NCBI GenBank assembly: GCA_945836755.1
Contig: CAMAMB010000008.1
Span: 1 to 58,449, forward strand
DNA: 58,449 nt
Source: an uncultured Bacteroidales bacterium
Lineage (GTDB): Bacteria; Bacteroidota; Bacteroidia; Bacteroidales; Bacteroidaceae
Direction of reading: 5' to 3'
The position numbers and the translations under genes are program-made. Of the stretch, positions 12,590-44,488 are shown piece by piece (position 1 is the first letter of the stretch; each line of letters starts with the position of its first letter). Under the pieces are notes generated by a model. The model was not told where the DNA came from. It saw only the letters and a list, made by a program, of their open reading frames with translations, and did not search any database.

Positions 12590-12634
12590 CCCACACGGAT
12601 GCTGGAACATTTTACGGGGCATCTGCGCCGTGCG

Positions 12635-12676
12635 TAGAAGCCTGTTTCCCGTTTTTAGAAGCCTTCGCGCCGGTGA
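12635..12676 (-). repeat. Two 21-bp-period GCTTC-core repeat units
   Basis: TAGAAGCC occurs at 12635 and again exactly 21 bases later at 12656. Read on the minus strand the units have the same build as the array at 37163-37266 (GGCTTC followed by an A-rich stretch and CGGGAAA). The second unit merges with the left end of the hairpin element at 12658-12776. Confidence 0.6.
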
Positions 12677-12776
12677 AATTCGGGCGGATGCAAGGTAGCA
12701 TTGGGCCAAATGCAACCTTGCATCCGCCCGAAAGCAAGGTGACATCCGCCCCAATGTCACTCTCGCGAAGGCTTCC
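12658..12776 (+). repeat. Hairpin-forming interspersed repeat, copy 1 (119 bp)
   Basis: The element is bounded by GAAGCCTTCGCG and CGCGAAGGCTTCC. Inside, GGGCGGATGCAAGGT (12682-12696) pairs with ACCTTGCATCCGCCC about 18 bases later, with a further GCATT/AATGC pair, giving a hairpin of roughly 20 bp. A third related block (GACATCCGCCCC) follows. The reverse complement recurs almost unchanged at 37056-37175. No gene lies in the 340-bp gap 12590-12929 apart from these repeats and the promoter at its right end. Confidence 0.85.
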
Positions 12777-12865
12777 GGGAACGGCCGGACGCCTTCCGGC
12801 TTCGGCACGGACGGCCTCCATACACCGTCGGGCCGCCTTGCAGTCTTACTTTTCGGTCCAAAGAC

Positions 12866-24081: not shown

Positions 24082-24120
24082 TATCCGGGTGTTCGGACAT
24101 GGTGCCGACTCACCCGGATA
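24082..24120 (+). terminator. Hairpin after tlpA-like gene
   Basis: TATCCGGGTG (24082-24091) and CACCCGGATA (24111-24120) form a perfect 10-bp stem with an inner TCGG/CCGA pair. CTTCTTTCTC follows. It is probably the end of the tlpA-like transcript; some read-through to the symporter is possible. Confidence 0.65.
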
Positions 24121-24151
24121 CTTCTTTCTCACCCAACGCCTCCCTCCCATC

Positions 24152-25348
24152 ATGCACCTCCCCCACATCGGCCTTCTCCCGCGCATACTCATCGCCATTG
24201 CCCTGGGCATAGGGCTGGGCCTCATCTCGCCCGACGTGCCCGTGCGCATCTTTGTCACCTTCAACGGCCTCTTCAGCCAGTTCTTAGGCTTTCTCGTCCC
24301 CCTCATCATCCTGGGCCTCGTCACCCCGGCCATTGTCAGTGTCGACAGCGAAGGCCGACAGGGCGCAGGTCGCATGCTCCTGCTCACCGTGCTGCTGGCC
24401 TACGGAGCTACCCTCGTCTCCGGCTTCTTCTCTTACGGCGTATGCAGCCTCACCCTGCCCCACCTCATCGACAGCAAGGTAGCGCTCACCGCCATCAGCG
24501 AGAGCACCACCTCACAACCCTACTTCAGTGTGGCCATACCCGAACCGCTCAGCGTCATGACCGCCCTCGTGCTGGCCTTCACGCTCGGCTTGGGCATCGC
24601 GGCCCTCAAAGCCAAGGTGCTGACCCGCGCAGCCGAGGAGTTTAAGGACGTCATCGTGCTTGCCATACAGAAGGTCATCCTGCCGCTACTTCCGGTCTAC
24701 ATCTTCGGCATCTTCTACCACATGAGCCACTCCGGCGAGGTGTTTCACGTGCTGGCCATCTTCGCCAAGGTCATTGCCGTCATCTTCGTCATGCACATCC
24801 TGCTGCTGGTCTTCCAGTTCACGATTGCCGGCCTGCTCCACGGGCGCAGCCCCTTCCGTCTGCTCAGCCGCATGATGCCCGCCTACTTCACGGCCTTAGG
24901 CACACAGTCGTCGGCAGCCACCATCCCCTTCACCCTGCGCTGCGCCATCAAGAATGGGGTCAGCGAAGGCATCGCCGGCTTCGTCATCCCCCTCTGCGCC
25001 ACCATCCACCTCTCGGGCAGCATCCTCAAGATTGTGGCGTGCGCCATTGCCCTCATGCTCACTCAGGGCATCGCCTTCGAGCCGGGGCAGATGGCCGGAT
25101 TCATCTGCATGCTGGGCATCACGATGGTGGCAGCGCCGGGGGTGCCGGGCGGCGCCATCATGGCAGCCCTGGGAGTGCTCCAGTCTATGCTGGGCTTCAC
25201 CGACAACGACCAGGCCCTCATGATAGCCCTCTACATCGCCATGGACAGCTTCGGCACAGCCTGCAACGTCACAGGCGACGGAGCCCTTGCCCTCATCGTA
25301 CAGAAGATAGCCGGCAAAGCGAAAAGTGCTCCATCCATGGCAGGTTGA
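24152..25348 (+). CDS. Dicarboxylate/amino acid:cation symporter (DAACS family)
   Basis: The 398-residue inner-membrane carrier has the eight-helix glutamate-transporter fold: an N-terminal ILIAIALGIGLGL helix, the first re-entrant hairpin with the Ser-rich GTQSSAATIP, and the second hairpin with GVPGGAIMAAL followed by MDSFGTACNVTGD in helix 8. These positions bind substrate and sodium in GltPh/DctA relatives. Substrate (glutamate, aspartate, serine or a dicarboxylate) is not decidable. The start at 24152 avoids the terminator hairpin that an upstream start at 24089 would include. The last eight codons and the stop codon lie inside an 85-bp interspersed repeat (25326-25410). Confidence 0.9.
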   Translation: MHLPHIGLLPRILIAIALGIGLGLISPDVPVRIFVTFNGLFSQFLGFLVPLIILGLVTPAIVSVDSEGRQGAGRMLLLTVLLAYGATLVSGFFSYGVCSLTLPHLIDSKVALTAISESTTSQPYFSVAIPEPLSVMTALVLAFTLGLGIAALKAKVLTRAAEEFKDVIVLAIQKVILPLLPVYIFGIFYHMSHSGEVFHVLAIFAKVIAVIFVMHILLLVFQFTIAGLLHGRSPFRLLSRMMPAYFTALGTQSSAATIPFTLRCAIKNGVSEGIAGFVIPLCATIHLSGSILKIVACAIALMLTQGIAFEPGQMAGFICMLGITMVAAPGVPGGAIMAALGVLQSMLGFTDNDQALMIALYIAMDSFGTACNVTGDGALALIVQKIAGKAKSAPSMAG

Positions 25349-25410
25349 CAAGGCATATGATACATACGTAAGCGGCTGAGCCTCATACGTTTGCAAGAAA
25401 GGTGAATCCC
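25326..25410 (+). repeat. 85-bp interspersed repeat, copy 1 (diverged)
   Basis: This copy aligns without gaps to 25475-25559, 44277-44361 and 58185-58269. Shared blocks are ATGGCAGGT, TACATACGTAA and TGCAAGAA, at equal distances. Its first 23 bases are the 3' end of the symporter gene. Confidence 0.75.
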
Positions 25411-25474
25411 GCCACGCGCCACCTGCTTCTTCCCCTCCCTCAACGCCCCGAAAACGGCTGGCAGAGCGGCGGAA

Positions 25475-25559
25475 ATGCTGCATTGATGGCAGGTGGCGGA
25501 TTCAAATGCTACATACGTAAACGTCTGACCTTCAGACGTGTGCAAGATTAGTGTAAGAT
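25475..25559 (+). repeat. 85-bp interspersed repeat, copy 2
   Basis: Blocks in order: ATGCTGCATTGATGGCAGGT, CAAAT-CTACATACGTAA, TGCAAGA and GTGTAAGAT. The first 20 bases are identical to the copy at 44277. The GTGTAAG at its end is matched by an inverted CTTACAC about 64 bases downstream (25615-25621), as it is in the 44-kb copy. It begins the composite element that runs to the array at 25691. Confidence 0.85.
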
Positions 25560-25690
25560 GTGTAAGTAAATTCTGCGACCACAAACGTATAGGCATACAG
25601 CGCCCCTCTCTCACCTTACACAGCCCCCTCCGCCCAAGTCAACCCCCACCATCCAGCTCCGCCTTCTCACCGCAAGGCATCTCGCCACCA

Positions 25691-25790
25691 CGGCAATGCT
25701 TCCAGTTTTAACGGGGATGCTTCCAGTTTTAACGGCAATGCTTCCAGTTTTAACGGCAATGCTTCCAGTTTTAACGGGGATGCTTCCAGT
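25691..25790 (+). repeat. Five-unit 21-bp tandem array with GCTTCC core
   Basis: GCTTCC occurs at 25698, 25719, 25740, 25761 and 25782, exactly 21 bases apart. Units read TGCTTCCAGTTTTAACGG followed by GGA or CAA, so two versions alternate. A block related to CACCGCCAAGGCATCT stands just before it, as before the single units at 44 and 58 kb. There are no unique spacers, so it is not CRISPR. Confidence 0.9.
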
Positions 25791-25830
25791 AAACTTACAT
25801 TCCGGGTGACAACTATGACGTTGCCGGGGA

Positions 25831-25932
25831 GCCTCCGCCACCCGCTTAGCGAGCTGCGTAGAGAGCGAAGATGGTGGGCACCTTGTGGATGGGCGGCTCG
25901 GGCTGCTGCCTCCACCCGGCCACGGTGAGAGT
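25831..25932. repeat. 102-bp direct repeat, distal copy (island left boundary)
   Basis: Identical to 27820-27921 except A25852 against G27841. The sequence is the last 29 codons (with stop) of the rsmI-like gene plus 15 bases of its 3' flank. Here it is detached from the gene, so it is a duplicated gene tail. Confidence 0.95.
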
Positions 25933-26063
25933 GGAATATGCCACTGGCATGACAAGGCAATTCCCCTATATCAGAAAGATTATCTGACACAAAGCCATCT
26001 GGAGGGGCAAATCCGGCATATCCATGAATGATACATGGCTAATGAGTTTATTTTGAACAATCA

Positions 26064-26095
26064 TACTACAACCGTCAATAAATGTAGTAACTTTG
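26064..26095 (+). promoter_or_regulatory. abiE promoter with overlapping inverted repeat
   Basis: The -7 box TAACTTTG is at 26088-26095. TACTACA (26064-26070) and TGTAGTA (26083-26089) are a perfect 7-bp inverted repeat with a 12-base spacer that reaches into the -7 box. AbiEi antitoxins are known to repress their own operon through inverted repeats, so this is a good operator candidate. Confidence 0.55.
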
Positions 26096-26118
26096 TACGC
26101 AAGATATCGTATAAAGGC

Positions 26119-26691
26119 ATGGAAGACAAGAGATGTAGCAACAGTTTTACCTCCTCAGGAATGGTAAAGGAAGAAGGACGGGCAGCATACTACAAGCTGC
26201 TGAACAGCGTGCGTAATGGTGATACCGTTCGCATCAAGCGCGGGGTGTATGCCACAGCTGAACAGTTGGCTGACACGATGATAGATGTGCAGGCCATTGT
26301 TCCGGGTGGGGTGATATGCCTTCTCTCCGCATGGAGCGTGCATGAACTTACCACCTCGCTTCCTCAGGCATACCATATTGCCGTAAAGAGAGGCAGGAAA
26401 GTCACGCTCCCTATCTTCCCCAAAGTAGAACTGCATCACATCACCGATACGATGTTTGACATAGGTATCGAAGAACAGATAGTCAGCGGCTATCGCATAC
26501 AGCTATATAACAAGGCGCGGTGTGTATGTGATGCCATAAAATACCGCAACAAGGTTGGCATGGACATTTGTGCCGAAGTGGTAAACAGCTACCTCTCACT
26601 ACCAGACAGAAACCTTTCCCTGCTATTTGACTATGCCGACAAACTGCGAGTAAGAAGCATCCTCGAACAATATGTGGCACTAAAGCTATGA
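26119..26691 (+). CDS. abiEi: Type IV toxin-antitoxin system antitoxin, AbiEi family
   Basis: The 190-residue protein resembles AbiEi antitoxins: an N-terminal winged-helix region with RIKRGVYATAEQL (the recurring K/R-RGxY element), then a domain containing GGVICLLSAWSVHELTTSLP and a C-terminal segment ending in DYADKLRVRSILEQY. AbiEi represses the operon and counters the toxin without a stable complex, which defines type IV. The frame is open to 26035, but the promoter at 26088 implies a start at the ATG at 26119 (or 26161). Its stop overlaps the toxin start by 4 bases (ATGA), typical of this pair. Confidence 0.88.
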   Translation: MEDKRCSNSFTSSGMVKEEGRAAYYKLLNSVRNGDTVRIKRGVYATAEQLADTMIDVQAIVPGGVICLLSAWSVHELTTSLPQAYHIAVKRGRKVTLPIFPKVELHHITDTMFDIGIEEQIVSGYRIQLYNKARCVCDAIKYRNKVGMDICAEVVNSYLSLPDRNLSLLFDYADKLRVRSILEQYVALKL

Positions 26692-27563
26692 GTGAGATAA
26701 AGAACTGTGGAAAATCCATCAGGGCAAGGCTGCTTAACGTGGCCAAGCAGGAGGAGGTGTTCTATCAGACCATCCTGACCCGATACTTTCAGGAGCGTCT
26801 GCTGCACCGCATTTCCCGGACGCGTTACCGCGACAACTTCTATCTGAAAGGCGGTGCGCTGATGTACGCCTACGAGAGGTTTGCCGCTCGTCCCACTTTG
26901 GACATAGACTTTCTTGGTGCTCACATCAGCAATGATGGTGAGCGCATAGCCGAGGCGTTCCGAGAGATATGTGCGGTTGATTGCAAGGAGGATGGCGTAC
27001 AGTTTGCCTGCAACAAGATTACTACCCAGGATATCACCGAGTTCAAGGATTACCATGGCATCCGTCTGAGTATTCCGGTGACCATGGACACCATCGCACA
27101 GGTGCTCACGATGGACGTTGGGTTTGGAGATGTGGTTACTCCGCATCCTGTTTCGTTGGACTATCCTCTGTTGTTAGAGGGACTGCCCGAAGCGAGCATC
27201 CTTGCCTATTCTACAGAAACCGTGATTGCAGAGAAGATGCATGCCATCATAGATTTGGCTGACCAGAGTAGCCGTATGAAAGATTATTATGACATCTACC
27301 ACCTGCTCACATCCTTCCCATACGATACTACCGTCTTGCAGGATGCCATCAACCGCACCTTTGAGAATCGTCGCACAGTCTATAATGCCGACACGATGTT
27401 TTTCAGGAAAGACTTCCCCAACCATCCGCAGATGGAAGTTCGATGGACCGCTTTCCTAAGAAAGACCACTATCAATAGTGTCCTATCATTTGCTGAGGTA
27501 GCACATTGGCTTCAAGACACATTAAGACCATACTGGACAGCGTATGGACGTATGCAGCACTGA
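26688..27563 (+). CDS. abiEii: Nucleotidyltransferase toxin, AbiEii/AbiGii family
   Basis: The 291-residue protein has the nucleotidyltransferase core: KGGALM (residues 54-59), the metal-binding pair Asp72/Asp74 in RPTLDIDFLG, and the downstream basic segment VIAEKMHAIIDL followed by DYYDIYHL. AbiEii-type toxins attach nucleotides to tRNA or other targets and stop growth, which gives abortive phage resistance. All motif residues appear intact, so the toxin is probably active. It is translationally coupled to the antitoxin gene. Codon use is visibly less GC-biased than in flanking genes, which supports transfer. Confidence 0.92.
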   Translation: MSEIKNCGKSIRARLLNVAKQEEVFYQTILTRYFQERLLHRISRTRYRDNFYLKGGALMYAYERFAARPTLDIDFLGAHISNDGERIAEAFREICAVDCKEDGVQFACNKITTQDITEFKDYHGIRLSIPVTMDTIAQVLTMDVGFGDVVTPHPVSLDYPLLLEGLPEASILAYSTETVIAEKMHAIIDLADQSSRMKDYYDIYHLLTSFPYDTTVLQDAINRTFENRRTVYNADTMFFRKDFPNHPQMEVRWTAFLRKTTINSVLSFAEVAHWLQDTLRPYWTAYGRMQH

Positions 27564-27819
27564 CCGAGCTTGGTTACTTATGATGCCTTATTCGATGGAA
27601 GCTTTATTACTACCATTCGGCTCAAGCTCACTACCAACAACATGAGATCCTTCGCACCCGGCAATCCCGTTACCGGCTCTATATAGTCGCCCCTTAAAAA
27701 GCGTTCACCCGAGAAATGTGGCAGACGTGGCAAAGCTAACAGAATAACGACTTGTTGATTATTAGCAAGACAGCAACCTATTAAGGGTAGACTAAATAAT
27801 GAGTGACTACGATCCCGAA

Positions 27820-27921
27820 GCCTCCGCCACCCGCTTAGCGGGCTGCGTAGAGAGCGAAGATGGTGGGCACCTTGTGGATGGGCGGCTCGGGCTGCTGCCT
27901 CCACCCGGCCACGGTGAGAGT
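27820..27921. repeat. 102-bp direct repeat, gene-attached copy (island right boundary)
   Basis: Contains the 3' end of the rsmI-like gene (27835-27921) and 15 bases beyond its stop codon. One mismatch to 25831-25932. Confidence 0.95.
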
Positions 27922-28554
27922 ACGCAGGAAGGCGGCGTCGGTGGTGAGGCCGGCCGCTACACAGAGACGGGTATTCTTGTCAAGCGTCTGCAGCAAATGA
28001 TGGAAGAGCTGGAGATTGCGGAAGGGGGTCTCTATAAAGAGCTGCGTCTGCCGCTCCACGGCTGAACGTGTCTCTAAACGCTTGAGTGCCTTGGCACGGT
28101 CGGCTGTATCGACAGGCAGATAGCCATTGAAGGCAAAGCTCTGGCCATTGAAGCCACTACCCATCACGGCCAACAAGATGGAAGACGGGCCTACCAAGGG
28201 TACTACTTCGAGACCCTCGCGCTGGGCGATGGCCACGAGATCGGCACCCGGGTCGGCCACAGCAGGACAGCCGGCCTCGCTGATTACGCCCATGCTCTCG
28301 CCACGACGCAGAGGCTCGAGATGGCGACTAAAGAGGGCTGCATCGGCATGCTTCCCCATCTCGTAGAACGTGAGGGCATCAATGTCGATGCTACGGTCCA
28401 CTTGTTTGAGGAAACGGCGGGCCGAACGCAGGTCCTCGACGATGAAATGGCGCAAGCCGAGGATGACGTCGCGATTATAATCGGGCAACACCTGACGATG
28501 GGGCACATCGCCACCAAGAGTAACCGGTATGAGATAGAGAGCAGGGGTGGACAT
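27835..28554 (-). CDS. SAM-dependent methyltransferase, tetrapyrrole methylase fold (RsmI-like)
   Basis: The 239-residue protein is of the COG0313 group, whose best-known member RsmI methylates the 2'-O of 16S rRNA C1402. It shows YLIPVTLGG at the N-terminus, the SAM-binding MGVISEAGCPAVADPG, and VPLVGPSSILLAVMGSGFNGQSFAFNG split by short loops. The protein is shorter than E. coli RsmI and matches the Bacteroidetes form usually annotated only as a SAM-dependent methyltransferase, so the rRNA target is inferred. It is the last gene of a likely mtaB-GT2-rsmI unit. Its 3' end serves as the integration site of the AbiE island and is preserved. Confidence 0.88.
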   Translation of the reverse strand: MSTPALYLIPVTLGGDVPHRQVLPDYNRDVILGLRHFIVEDLRSARRFLKQVDRSIDIDALTFYEMGKHADAALFSRHLEPLRRGESMGVISEAGCPAVADPGADLVAIAQREGLEVVPLVGPSSILLAVMGSGFNGQSFAFNGYLPVDTADRAKALKRLETRSAVERQTQLFIETPFRNLQLFHHLLQTLDKNTRLCVAAGLTTDAAFLRTLTVAGWRQQPEPPIHKVPTIFALYAAR

Positions 28555-36619: not shown

Positions 36620-37055
36620 CTCGTTGTCGCTGCGAGCCCTCCGCGCCTACTTCCACCACTTGGGGAAATACTGGCGCAGTATGTAGGGGGTGGGCTATAC
36701 ACCTGTCGCATCCACTGAAGGCCATAGACTGCTGGGCGAACGGGGCAGGAAGACGTACGACACGGCTCTTCGTGCCACTCTCCGGGCAGCACCGCACGAC
36801 GGCTACTGCTACCGGTGAAAGGGGAATAGGATTTGACTGACACGGGGTTCATATGGAGGAGATGGTGAATAATTAGGTGAACGATGTTGCTGCATATGTA
36901 AAAAAATCTGCACGAGCAAACCCACACTTTGGCTGCGCTTTCAAGCCATGCCGCCGCGGCCCACGGCCTCGCTCCTGCACCGGCCGCCACGGGGCTGCAC
37001 AGCGGGCGTGGCCGCAGGCGCTTCGGCCGTGTGTCGACAGGGCCTCGTCGTGCCT
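36620..37055. other. Gap with possible decayed gene on the minus strand
   Basis: No intact gene is seen. On the minus strand, around 36650-36700, a short frame ends as a natural-looking protein tail (LRQYFPKWWK, stop near 36650) but is broken by a stop after about 15 codons, while a neighbouring frame stays open upstream. This may be a frameshifted relic. The right part is GC-rich and borders the hairpin repeat at 37056. Confidence 0.3.
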
Positions 37056-37175
37056 GGAAGCCTTCGCGCGAGTAACATTGGGGCGGATGCCACCTTGCTT
37101 TCGGGCGGATGCAAGGTGGCATTCGGCCTAATGCTACCTTGCATCCGCCCGGATTTCACTCACGCGAAGGCTTCC
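37056..37175 (-). repeat. Hairpin-forming interspersed repeat, copy 2 (120 bp)
   Basis: This is the inverted counterpart of 12658-12776: read on the minus strand the two agree over almost the whole length, including the GGGCGGATGCAAGGT / ACCTTGCATCCGCCC stem and the terminal GGAAGCC / GGCTTCC. Its right end runs straight into the 21-bp array at 37163. Confidence 0.85.
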
Positions 37176-37266
37176 AAACATGGCGCGAAGGCTTCCAAAC
37201 ACGGGAAAAAGGCTTCCAAGCACGGGAAAAAGGCTTCCAAGCATGGGGAAAAGGCTACCGGACACG
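37163..37266 (+). repeat. Five-unit 21-bp tandem array with GGCTTCC core
   Basis: GGCTTCC starts at 37169, 37190, 37211 and 37232, and GGCTACC at 37253: a strict 21-bp period. Between cores the units vary (AAACATGGCGCGAA, AAACACGGGAAAAA, AAGCACGGGAAAAA and similar), so the core is more conserved than the linker. From 37267 to the ilv promoter at 37495 I see no gene. Confidence 0.9.
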
Positions 37267-37494
37267 GCGAGCGGACACGGCGGCGAGCGCAGGATGCTTG
37301 GCGGCGAAGGCATGAAGCCTGACAAACCGACGCGGAGCCTCTGCCTCGCGCCACCCATCCACGAAGGCCATGCCACAGGCCACCCCCCGGGCAACAGACT
37401 GAGGGCCAAGACGGCACCAAACCCTTGCGCACTGACAAGCCGGCTGTGCAAAAGCAGCCAAACGGAACAAATAAAATGGATAAAGTGCTGACAA

Positions 37495-44139: not shown

Positions 44140-44276
44140 GCCAAGCCGCTCCCGAGCCTGCCCATCGGACCGACGGGGCACAGGCTCAGTGACCCATGCC
44201 GCCCCTTACCCCACCTTACACACTGCCTGCACCCCACGCCCGGCGTCATCCCTGAGTAGCGCCGCGCGTGGGGTGA

Positions 44277-44361
44277 ATGCTGCATTGATGGCAGGTGTGA
44301 GCCGCAAACGCTACACACTTAACGCAGTGACAATCAAGCATCTGCAAGAAGAGTGTAAGAT
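44277..44361 (+). repeat. 85-bp interspersed repeat, copy 3
   Basis: Shares ATGCTGCATTGATGGCAGGT exactly with copy 2 and keeps the CTACA-AC-TTAA, TCTGCAAGAA and GTGTAAGAT blocks at the same positions. It is followed, as in copy 2, by CTTACAC 63 bases on (44416-44422), by CACCGCCAAGGCATCT (44468-44483) and by a GCTTCC unit (44498). Confidence 0.85.
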
Positions 44362-44488
44362 TGTAGACATATATTCGCACTTCCACACCGTATAGGGCCA
44401 TCAGACCTCACACACCTTACACGGACCATCTCCTACGGGGCAAATCCTCCCCGATGGTCCAGACCTCACCGCCAAGGCATCTACGAAA

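Follow-up and report, generated by a model that had tools for sequence, protein, structure and literature searches.

Does an abiE gene pair enclosed by two copies of the 3′ end of an rsmI-like gene represent a small cassette integrated at an attachment site, or a piece of a larger element that reached this place by another route? The stretch of DNA analyzed here (58,449 bp, hereafter the window) is contig C8 of the metagenome-assembled genome (MAG) G000, which consists of 94 contigs and is 84.8% complete. Sequence comparison placed two direct copies of a 103-bp sequence at 25830–25932 (distal copy) and 27819–27921 (proximal copy), with a spacing of 1989 bp. The copies are identical at 102 of 103 bases, in agreement with the original prediction of direct repeats differing at one base. 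The sole mismatch (25852 A / 27841 G) leaves the encoded amino acid unchanged, as read from the sequence (GCC/GCT), and its position leaves a longest exact stretch of 80 bp. The repeat covers the last 29 codons, the stop codon and approximately 15 bp beyond it of a minus-strand gene at 27835–28554, the proximal copy being the 3′ end of this intact gene. In a self-BLAST of the window, the pair had an E value of 7e-46, the lowest at the settings used, and in the 84.8% complete MAG the repeat is located at only two places, both in the window. An extension of the repeat leftwards past 27819 was rejected, as the local alignment of the outer flanks was no better than those of shuffled sequences (12.2% of 5000 equaled it).

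The DNA between the copies has a G+C content of 47.8%, compared with 58.5% for the window, and is thus AT-richer as had been predicted. On the plus strand it contains abiEi (26035–26691, 218 amino acids from the first ATG) and abiEii (26688–27563, 291 amino acids), which overlap by 4 nt. The antitoxin gene was assigned by PADLOC (AbiEi, 8.9e-51) and the toxin gene by PADLOC (2.6e-92) and Pfam (AbiEii, 2.9e-49), while abiEi matched no Pfam family at 1e-3 and neither gene had an NCBIfam match at 1e-3. The two genes of AbiE families are adjacent, as in AbiE type IV toxin-antitoxin systems, and both frames are open. Judging from their families, AbiEi and AbiEii would be expected to function as a normal type IV toxin-antitoxin system, and the predicted pair may persist by addiction or as defence. 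The cassette was described earlier as encoding nothing clear besides these two genes; it also contains a gene remnant and a MITE-like element. Its left edge, joined directly to the repeat, is the 3′ remnant of a DUF6043 gene (25933–25988, plus strand), recognized by alignment to the genomes G045 and G131 with its end placed by reading the alignment. No paper on DUF6043 was found in the open-licence PMC literature. Downstream of abiEii, a tail (27564–27633) is still similar at the DNA level to the corresponding region in G045, and a 119-bp MITE-like element follows at 27680–27798, ending 20 bp before the repeat. The 22-bp ends of the MITE-like element form an imperfect inverted repeat, complementary at 17 of 22 positions, and are similar to those of an insertion sequence with a DUF772/DDE_Tnp_1 transposase in G010; the element was found once in the MAG. 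In G010, such DUF772/DDE insertion sequence ends are located at 453, 5771, 7189, and 8145 of contig C7 (L133). The cassette has no frame of at least 80 amino acids besides abiE and frames overlapping abiE or the repeats, and neither of the two G131 recombinases described below matched anywhere in the window at 0.01. The reported lack of an integrase was therefore upheld by both searches, and the cassette has neither the integrase nor, judging from the frame list alone, the relaxase that an integrative mobilizable element (IME) would carry of its own.

RsmI is the 16S rRNA C1402 methyltransferase, and the repeat had been assigned to the last 29 codons of rsmI; the number of codons was correct, but the gene is a paralogue. 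Profile search and homologue comparison indicated that the gene at 27835–28554 (minus strand) encodes an RsmI-like methyltransferase of 239 amino acids. Its TIGR00096 (RsmI) score of 83 bits lies below the cut-off of 167.9, which places it outside RsmI by this test, and it matched no Pfam family at 1e-3. A second homologue in the same MAG, a 301-amino-acid frame on C72, is 35% identical to it. Because of the low score and this second homologue, the gene is called RsmI-like here, and the C72 frame is more likely to be the true RsmI. The query was matched in 56 of 58 same-genus genomes, in a number of them through the second homologue only.

The genome G012 is the nearest relative for the RsmI-like gene (84% amino acid identity). 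The rsmI locus had been proposed as the place to look for empty sites, and G012 provides one: an SDF symporter gene, approximately 450 bp and the rsmI-like gene follow each other without the cassette and without the repeat. The corresponding SDF-family symporter gene of the window (24089–25348, plus strand; assigned by Pfam and comparison with G012) is the neighbor on the other side of the cassette, and approximately 500 bp lie between its stop and the distal gene-end stop. As this length compares with approximately 450 bp in G012, the 1989 bp are a net insertion. Both integration and capture by recombination predict an empty site with a single copy of the gene end, so that its presence decides nothing between them. 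The intergenic DNA of G012 gave no convincing alignment with either outer flank, so the original copy of the repeat cannot be told from G012. As far as could be told, the genomes compared include none of the source's own species. A cassette at a repeat-free junction, which had been named as evidence against the integration reading, was not found among them.

Other repeats are present in this part of the window. A 21-bp tandem array (25690–25790, 4.8 copies) lies between the symporter gene and the distal repeat, and another 21-bp array, whose unit is partly similar by eye, lies at 37167–37268. Two 91-bp direct copies of a dispersed repeat (25474–25564 and 44276–44365) are 75% identical, and a related copy overlaps the symporter gene end (25290–25398). 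A 75-bp repeat by this gene end (25324–25398 and 25473–25547) was considered as a parallel case of gene-end duplication and rejected as a dispersed repeat because part of it recurs at 44276–44365. An inverted pair of 156 bp (12628–12783 and 37049–37204, 85% identical), with each arm partly self-complementary, has the look of a dispersed MITE-type repeat.

Among the 58 same-genus genomes, five including the source have an abiEii relative, that of G012 being only a 71-residue piece with a stop. The module in G045 and G047 has 86% DNA identity and is located on contigs other than those of their rsmI-like genes; downstream of these genes, abiE is absent over the 7.5 and 1.2 kb covered, respectively. 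No long repeat flanks abiE in G045 and G047, where only matches of 26 bp at 88% and 22 bp at 95% were found. Cassette DNA was detected at E ≤ 1e-6 in 20 of 399 family genomes, source included, and once within the source MAG. Apart from G045 and G047, the only near-whole match with more than 80% identity among the 399 genomes was in G131, a member of another genus whose module is 87% identical to the cassette. The gene order in G131 is recombinase, recombinase, DUF6043, abiEi, and abiEii, followed by primase-like and mobilisation-like frames; the tyrosine recombinase, primase-like and mobilisation-like frames were named by reading the sequence, not by family search. The abiEii frame of G131 starts near residue 53, and this copy looks interrupted. 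A DNA search of plasmids and a search of viral contigs with abiEii peptide patterns gave no match, and a phage collection contained 17 records with AbiEii relatives, all below 60% identity.

The similarity to G045 and G131 begins at 25929, 4 bases before the end of the distal repeat. In G131, the point matching this left edge lies inside the DUF6043 gene, whose frame continues to the left for approximately 880 bp, and G045 retains a DUF6043 fragment (residues 281–363). The cassette edge is therefore a cut inside a gene and not an element end, and the cassette is a cut-out fragment; a unit cassette with its own ends was rejected for this reason. Approximately 157 bp of G045, with a similar stretch in G131, are missing from the window after 25974. 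The 4-bp match at the left joint (GAGT) fits G131 but not G045 (GAGC), and the role of microhomology is therefore uncertain. An assignment of the left flank in G045 as IS982-like was dropped, as it reads by eye as a frame-broken DUF6043 gene.

A search at E ≤ 1e-100 gave int1 relatives in 12 of 399 family genomes. Ten elements, one in each of ten of these genomes, were examined in their upstream DNA, leaving out G160 and G098 (weaker matches) and a second, partial copy in G342. The element in G255 has only 122 bp before int1 and could not be counted for the left end. In all nine elements with enough upstream DNA, a common left end (AAG[CT]GTGGAAC) is located 205–232 bp before int1. The flanks beyond it have no similarity at E ≤ 1e-3 except that G198 and G313 share approximately 0.9 kb; accordingly, the nine elements have eight different flanks. 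None of the loci covered for these elements has an rsmI-like gene (best match E 0.49; none at 0.01). The element locus of G131 (L172; G131:C1, 30063–33818, minus strand), with tandem tyrosine recombinase frames and DUF6043, has relatives with the same left end at different sites. At L173 (G069:C166, 6570–7208), an int1 piece lies directly beside the abiE upstream region as another decayed form of the same element. Low integration specificity is reported in passages of PMC5704250 for the IMEs with two tyrosine recombinases MTnPi1-3, and the many unrelated sites seen here agree with it. With no more than one mismatch allowed, the cassette has no copy of the left-end motif. With 3 mismatches of 11, seven matches occur in 25800–27950, one of which (25927–25937) spans the left joint; we read this match as probably due to chance, although it also allows the opposite reading.

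At 120 of 122 rsmI-like loci, we looked within the locus for a further copy of the gene end; the other two, whose match ended before the gene end was reached, were left out. The 120 loci are partly non-independent, with some contigs present in two collections; they extended downstream of the gene by a median of 5987 bp, and by 1.4 kb or more at 110 of them. A direct gene-end repeat longer than 19 bp was found at none of these 120 other loci. Short extra matches of 15–46 bp, mostly inverted, were present at 19 loci, and the three direct ones measured 15, 18, and 19 bp. With a C-terminal query of 60 amino acids, 277 of 399 family genomes had any match, and two matches occurred only in the source MAG and G262. 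The double match in G262 was rejected, as it consists of two full-length frames (237 and 240 amino acids) on two contigs of a genome with 5% contamination. The source MAG is the only one of the 399 genomes with a partial second copy of the C-terminal stretch, a count that could overlook a duplicate of 30 codons in a distant genome. An apparent second gene end in G031 was rejected as an assembly break, since two contig ends overlap there with the same sequence (by eye). Viral contigs contained no exact 32-base match to the repeat. As to a possible insertion hotspot, the frames that follow the rsmI-like gene (as many as three per locus) had an ordinary look in 12 relatives, judged by eye only. 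At L080, matches to the G131 recombinases lie approximately 2 kb away, on the 5′ side of the rsmI-like gene. The word rsmI was absent from the ten best-ranked of 333 literature matches on attachment sites, which were drawn from open-licence PMC articles. Of the site-specific integration footprint in the original prediction, the foreign-looking DNA, the duplicated end and the intact gene stand. Its other part, the repeats as attachment sites of the cassette, is not supported, given the left edge inside DUF6043, the related elements with a left end of their own in eight different flanks, and the result from the 120 loci.

We favor capture by one-sided homologous and illegitimate recombination over a tiny self-contained mobile cassette. 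With a rough probability of 0.55, the cassette is a fragment of a tandem-tyrosine-recombinase IME of Bacteroidales captured by recombination, and the 103-bp duplication is a by-product and not an attachment site. The donor arrangement and the order and mechanism of events that we infer are as follows. In a related strain, the element would have been located just downstream of the rsmI-like gene and then decayed. A donor piece containing the rsmI-like end, the MITE, abiE and the DUF6043 tail would have entered a cell with an empty site, where one of its ends would have undergone homologous recombination inside the rsmI-like gene and the other would have been joined illegitimately to the recipient gene approximately 30 codons before the stop. 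The outcome would be the donor gene end, the cassette and the recipient gene end in direct repeat, with the gene intact; a single crossover of a degraded, recircularized molecule could give the same layout by an alternative route. The single synonymous difference would fit donor and recipient alleles. Capture requires a single donor arrangement and a single event, homologous at one end and illegitimate at the other. A donor strain with abiE beside the RsmI-like gene was not found among the genomes compared.

Gene-end duplications of this kind are described for conjugation in E. coli in passages of PMC3240628, where 56 of 60 selected clones gave a PCR product diagnostic of the duplication. In the 14 such clones sequenced, the duplications measured 109–950 bp and were explained by single crossovers of circular molecules that had been shortened; the remaining four clones were interpreted as homology-facilitated illegitimate events. 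Three of these four lacked any homology at the joint, and such events had a frequency of approximately 3.5e-10. The likeness is foreign DNA between direct repeats, of 103 bp here, whereas the plasmid of that study was built with homology and the donor homology of our case is presumed. The rarity of the E. coli illegitimate events, and the lack of homology at most of their joints, count against capture. A comparable proposal was made for immunity gene arrays of Vibrio cholerae in passages of PMC5361080.

A gene-end duplication with an intact gene is also what attachment-site integration leaves, and with two internal deletions the result looks alike. A mobilizable element may thus have integrated site-specifically at the rsmI-like 3′ end with attL and attR of at least 103 bp, and subsequent deletions may have taken away the integrases, the mobilisation genes and the two ends of the element, so that abiE now stands between the att copies as in a CIME. 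The layout and the restored gene end correspond to what tyrosine recombinases leave when they integrate at the 3′ end of a gene, CIMEs are defined in passages of PMC5704250 by lost integration and transfer genes with attL and attR kept, a deletion that reached into the repeat would account for the exactness of the edge, and four Phage_integrase matches are located on other contigs of the MAG. We nevertheless consider this remnant somewhat unlikely: related tandem-integrase elements sit at unrelated sites with their own left end, no duplicated end (direct, longer than 19 bp) occurs at 120 other loci, the MAG has no int1 relative at E ≤ 1e-100 and the window no G131 recombinase match at 0.01, two independent deletions must both have spared the repeats, and the integrase required would have a site seen in none of the relatives examined. 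The length of 103 bp also exceeds the 8–60 bp given in passages of PMC5704250 as usual for att repeats of such elements. In terms of CIMEs, the locus is similar in that no integration or transfer genes were seen between the repeats (frame list and G131 recombinase search) and direct repeats lie on both sides, one including a gene end. It differs in that the left edge lies inside a gene of a larger element and the repeats are only candidate att sites, which are not attL and attR of an element family known at the same site.

That a minimal defence cassette lacking an integrase is moved by one supplied in trans, with the rsmI-like 3′ end as its attachment site, is very improbable; if true, gene-end cassettes of 2 kb would allow bare toxin-antitoxin pairs to travel. 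Copying within the locus is improbable as well: the element would have decayed downstream of the gene, and the 103-bp gene end would then have been copied across by template switching or unequal sister-chromosome exchange. The 21-bp tandem array of 4.8 copies in the same intergenic region indicates that local copying happens there, but a second event would be needed to delete what was left of the element on the far side of the new copy, and no intermediate was found. Quite improbable is a misassembly of the MAG, in which a molecule carrying abiE was joined to a chromosome with an empty site by way of the repeat common to both. The fragmentation of the assembly (94 contigs, 84.8% complete) and the 80-bp exact repeat, close to the k-mer lengths of short-read assembly, would allow it; the one-base difference between the copies, the position of both junctions inside a 58-kb contig and the single occurrence of cassette DNA in the MAG argue against it. 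A transposon target-site duplication was rejected, as DDE elements are not known to make duplications anywhere near 103 bp in length and 20 bp separate the MITE-like element from the repeat.

The element in G131 resembles MTnPi1-3, Bacteroidales IMEs of Prevotella intermedia, in its two adjacent tyrosine recombinase frames and, through its relatives, in occupying many unrelated sites with low specificity (passages of PMC5704250). The window differs in containing only the abiE pair and scraps, and the G131 element is likened to MTnPi1-3 by recombinase layout and sites. A type IV AbiE pair is likewise carried by an integrative element in ICESsuHN105 of Streptococcus suis, where AbiEi affects element stability according to PMC11062541. 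Unlike there, the rest of the element is missing here, and a role in element stability is therefore not expected.

The evidence points to an abiE cassette left over from a larger mobile element, and to a recombination accident more than a mobile cassette. The kind of the presumed parent element, a tandem-recombinase IME of Bacteroidales, is already known. The textbook footprint of an attachment site is probably misleading at this locus, as the insert is a fragment, cut inside a gene, of an element type already described, and none of the relatives of this element that were examined uses the rsmI-like site. Scans for islands by direct repeats of gene ends would count the cassette as an island. 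The finding suggests that a mobile element can be lost while the type IV toxin-antitoxin pair it brought survives.
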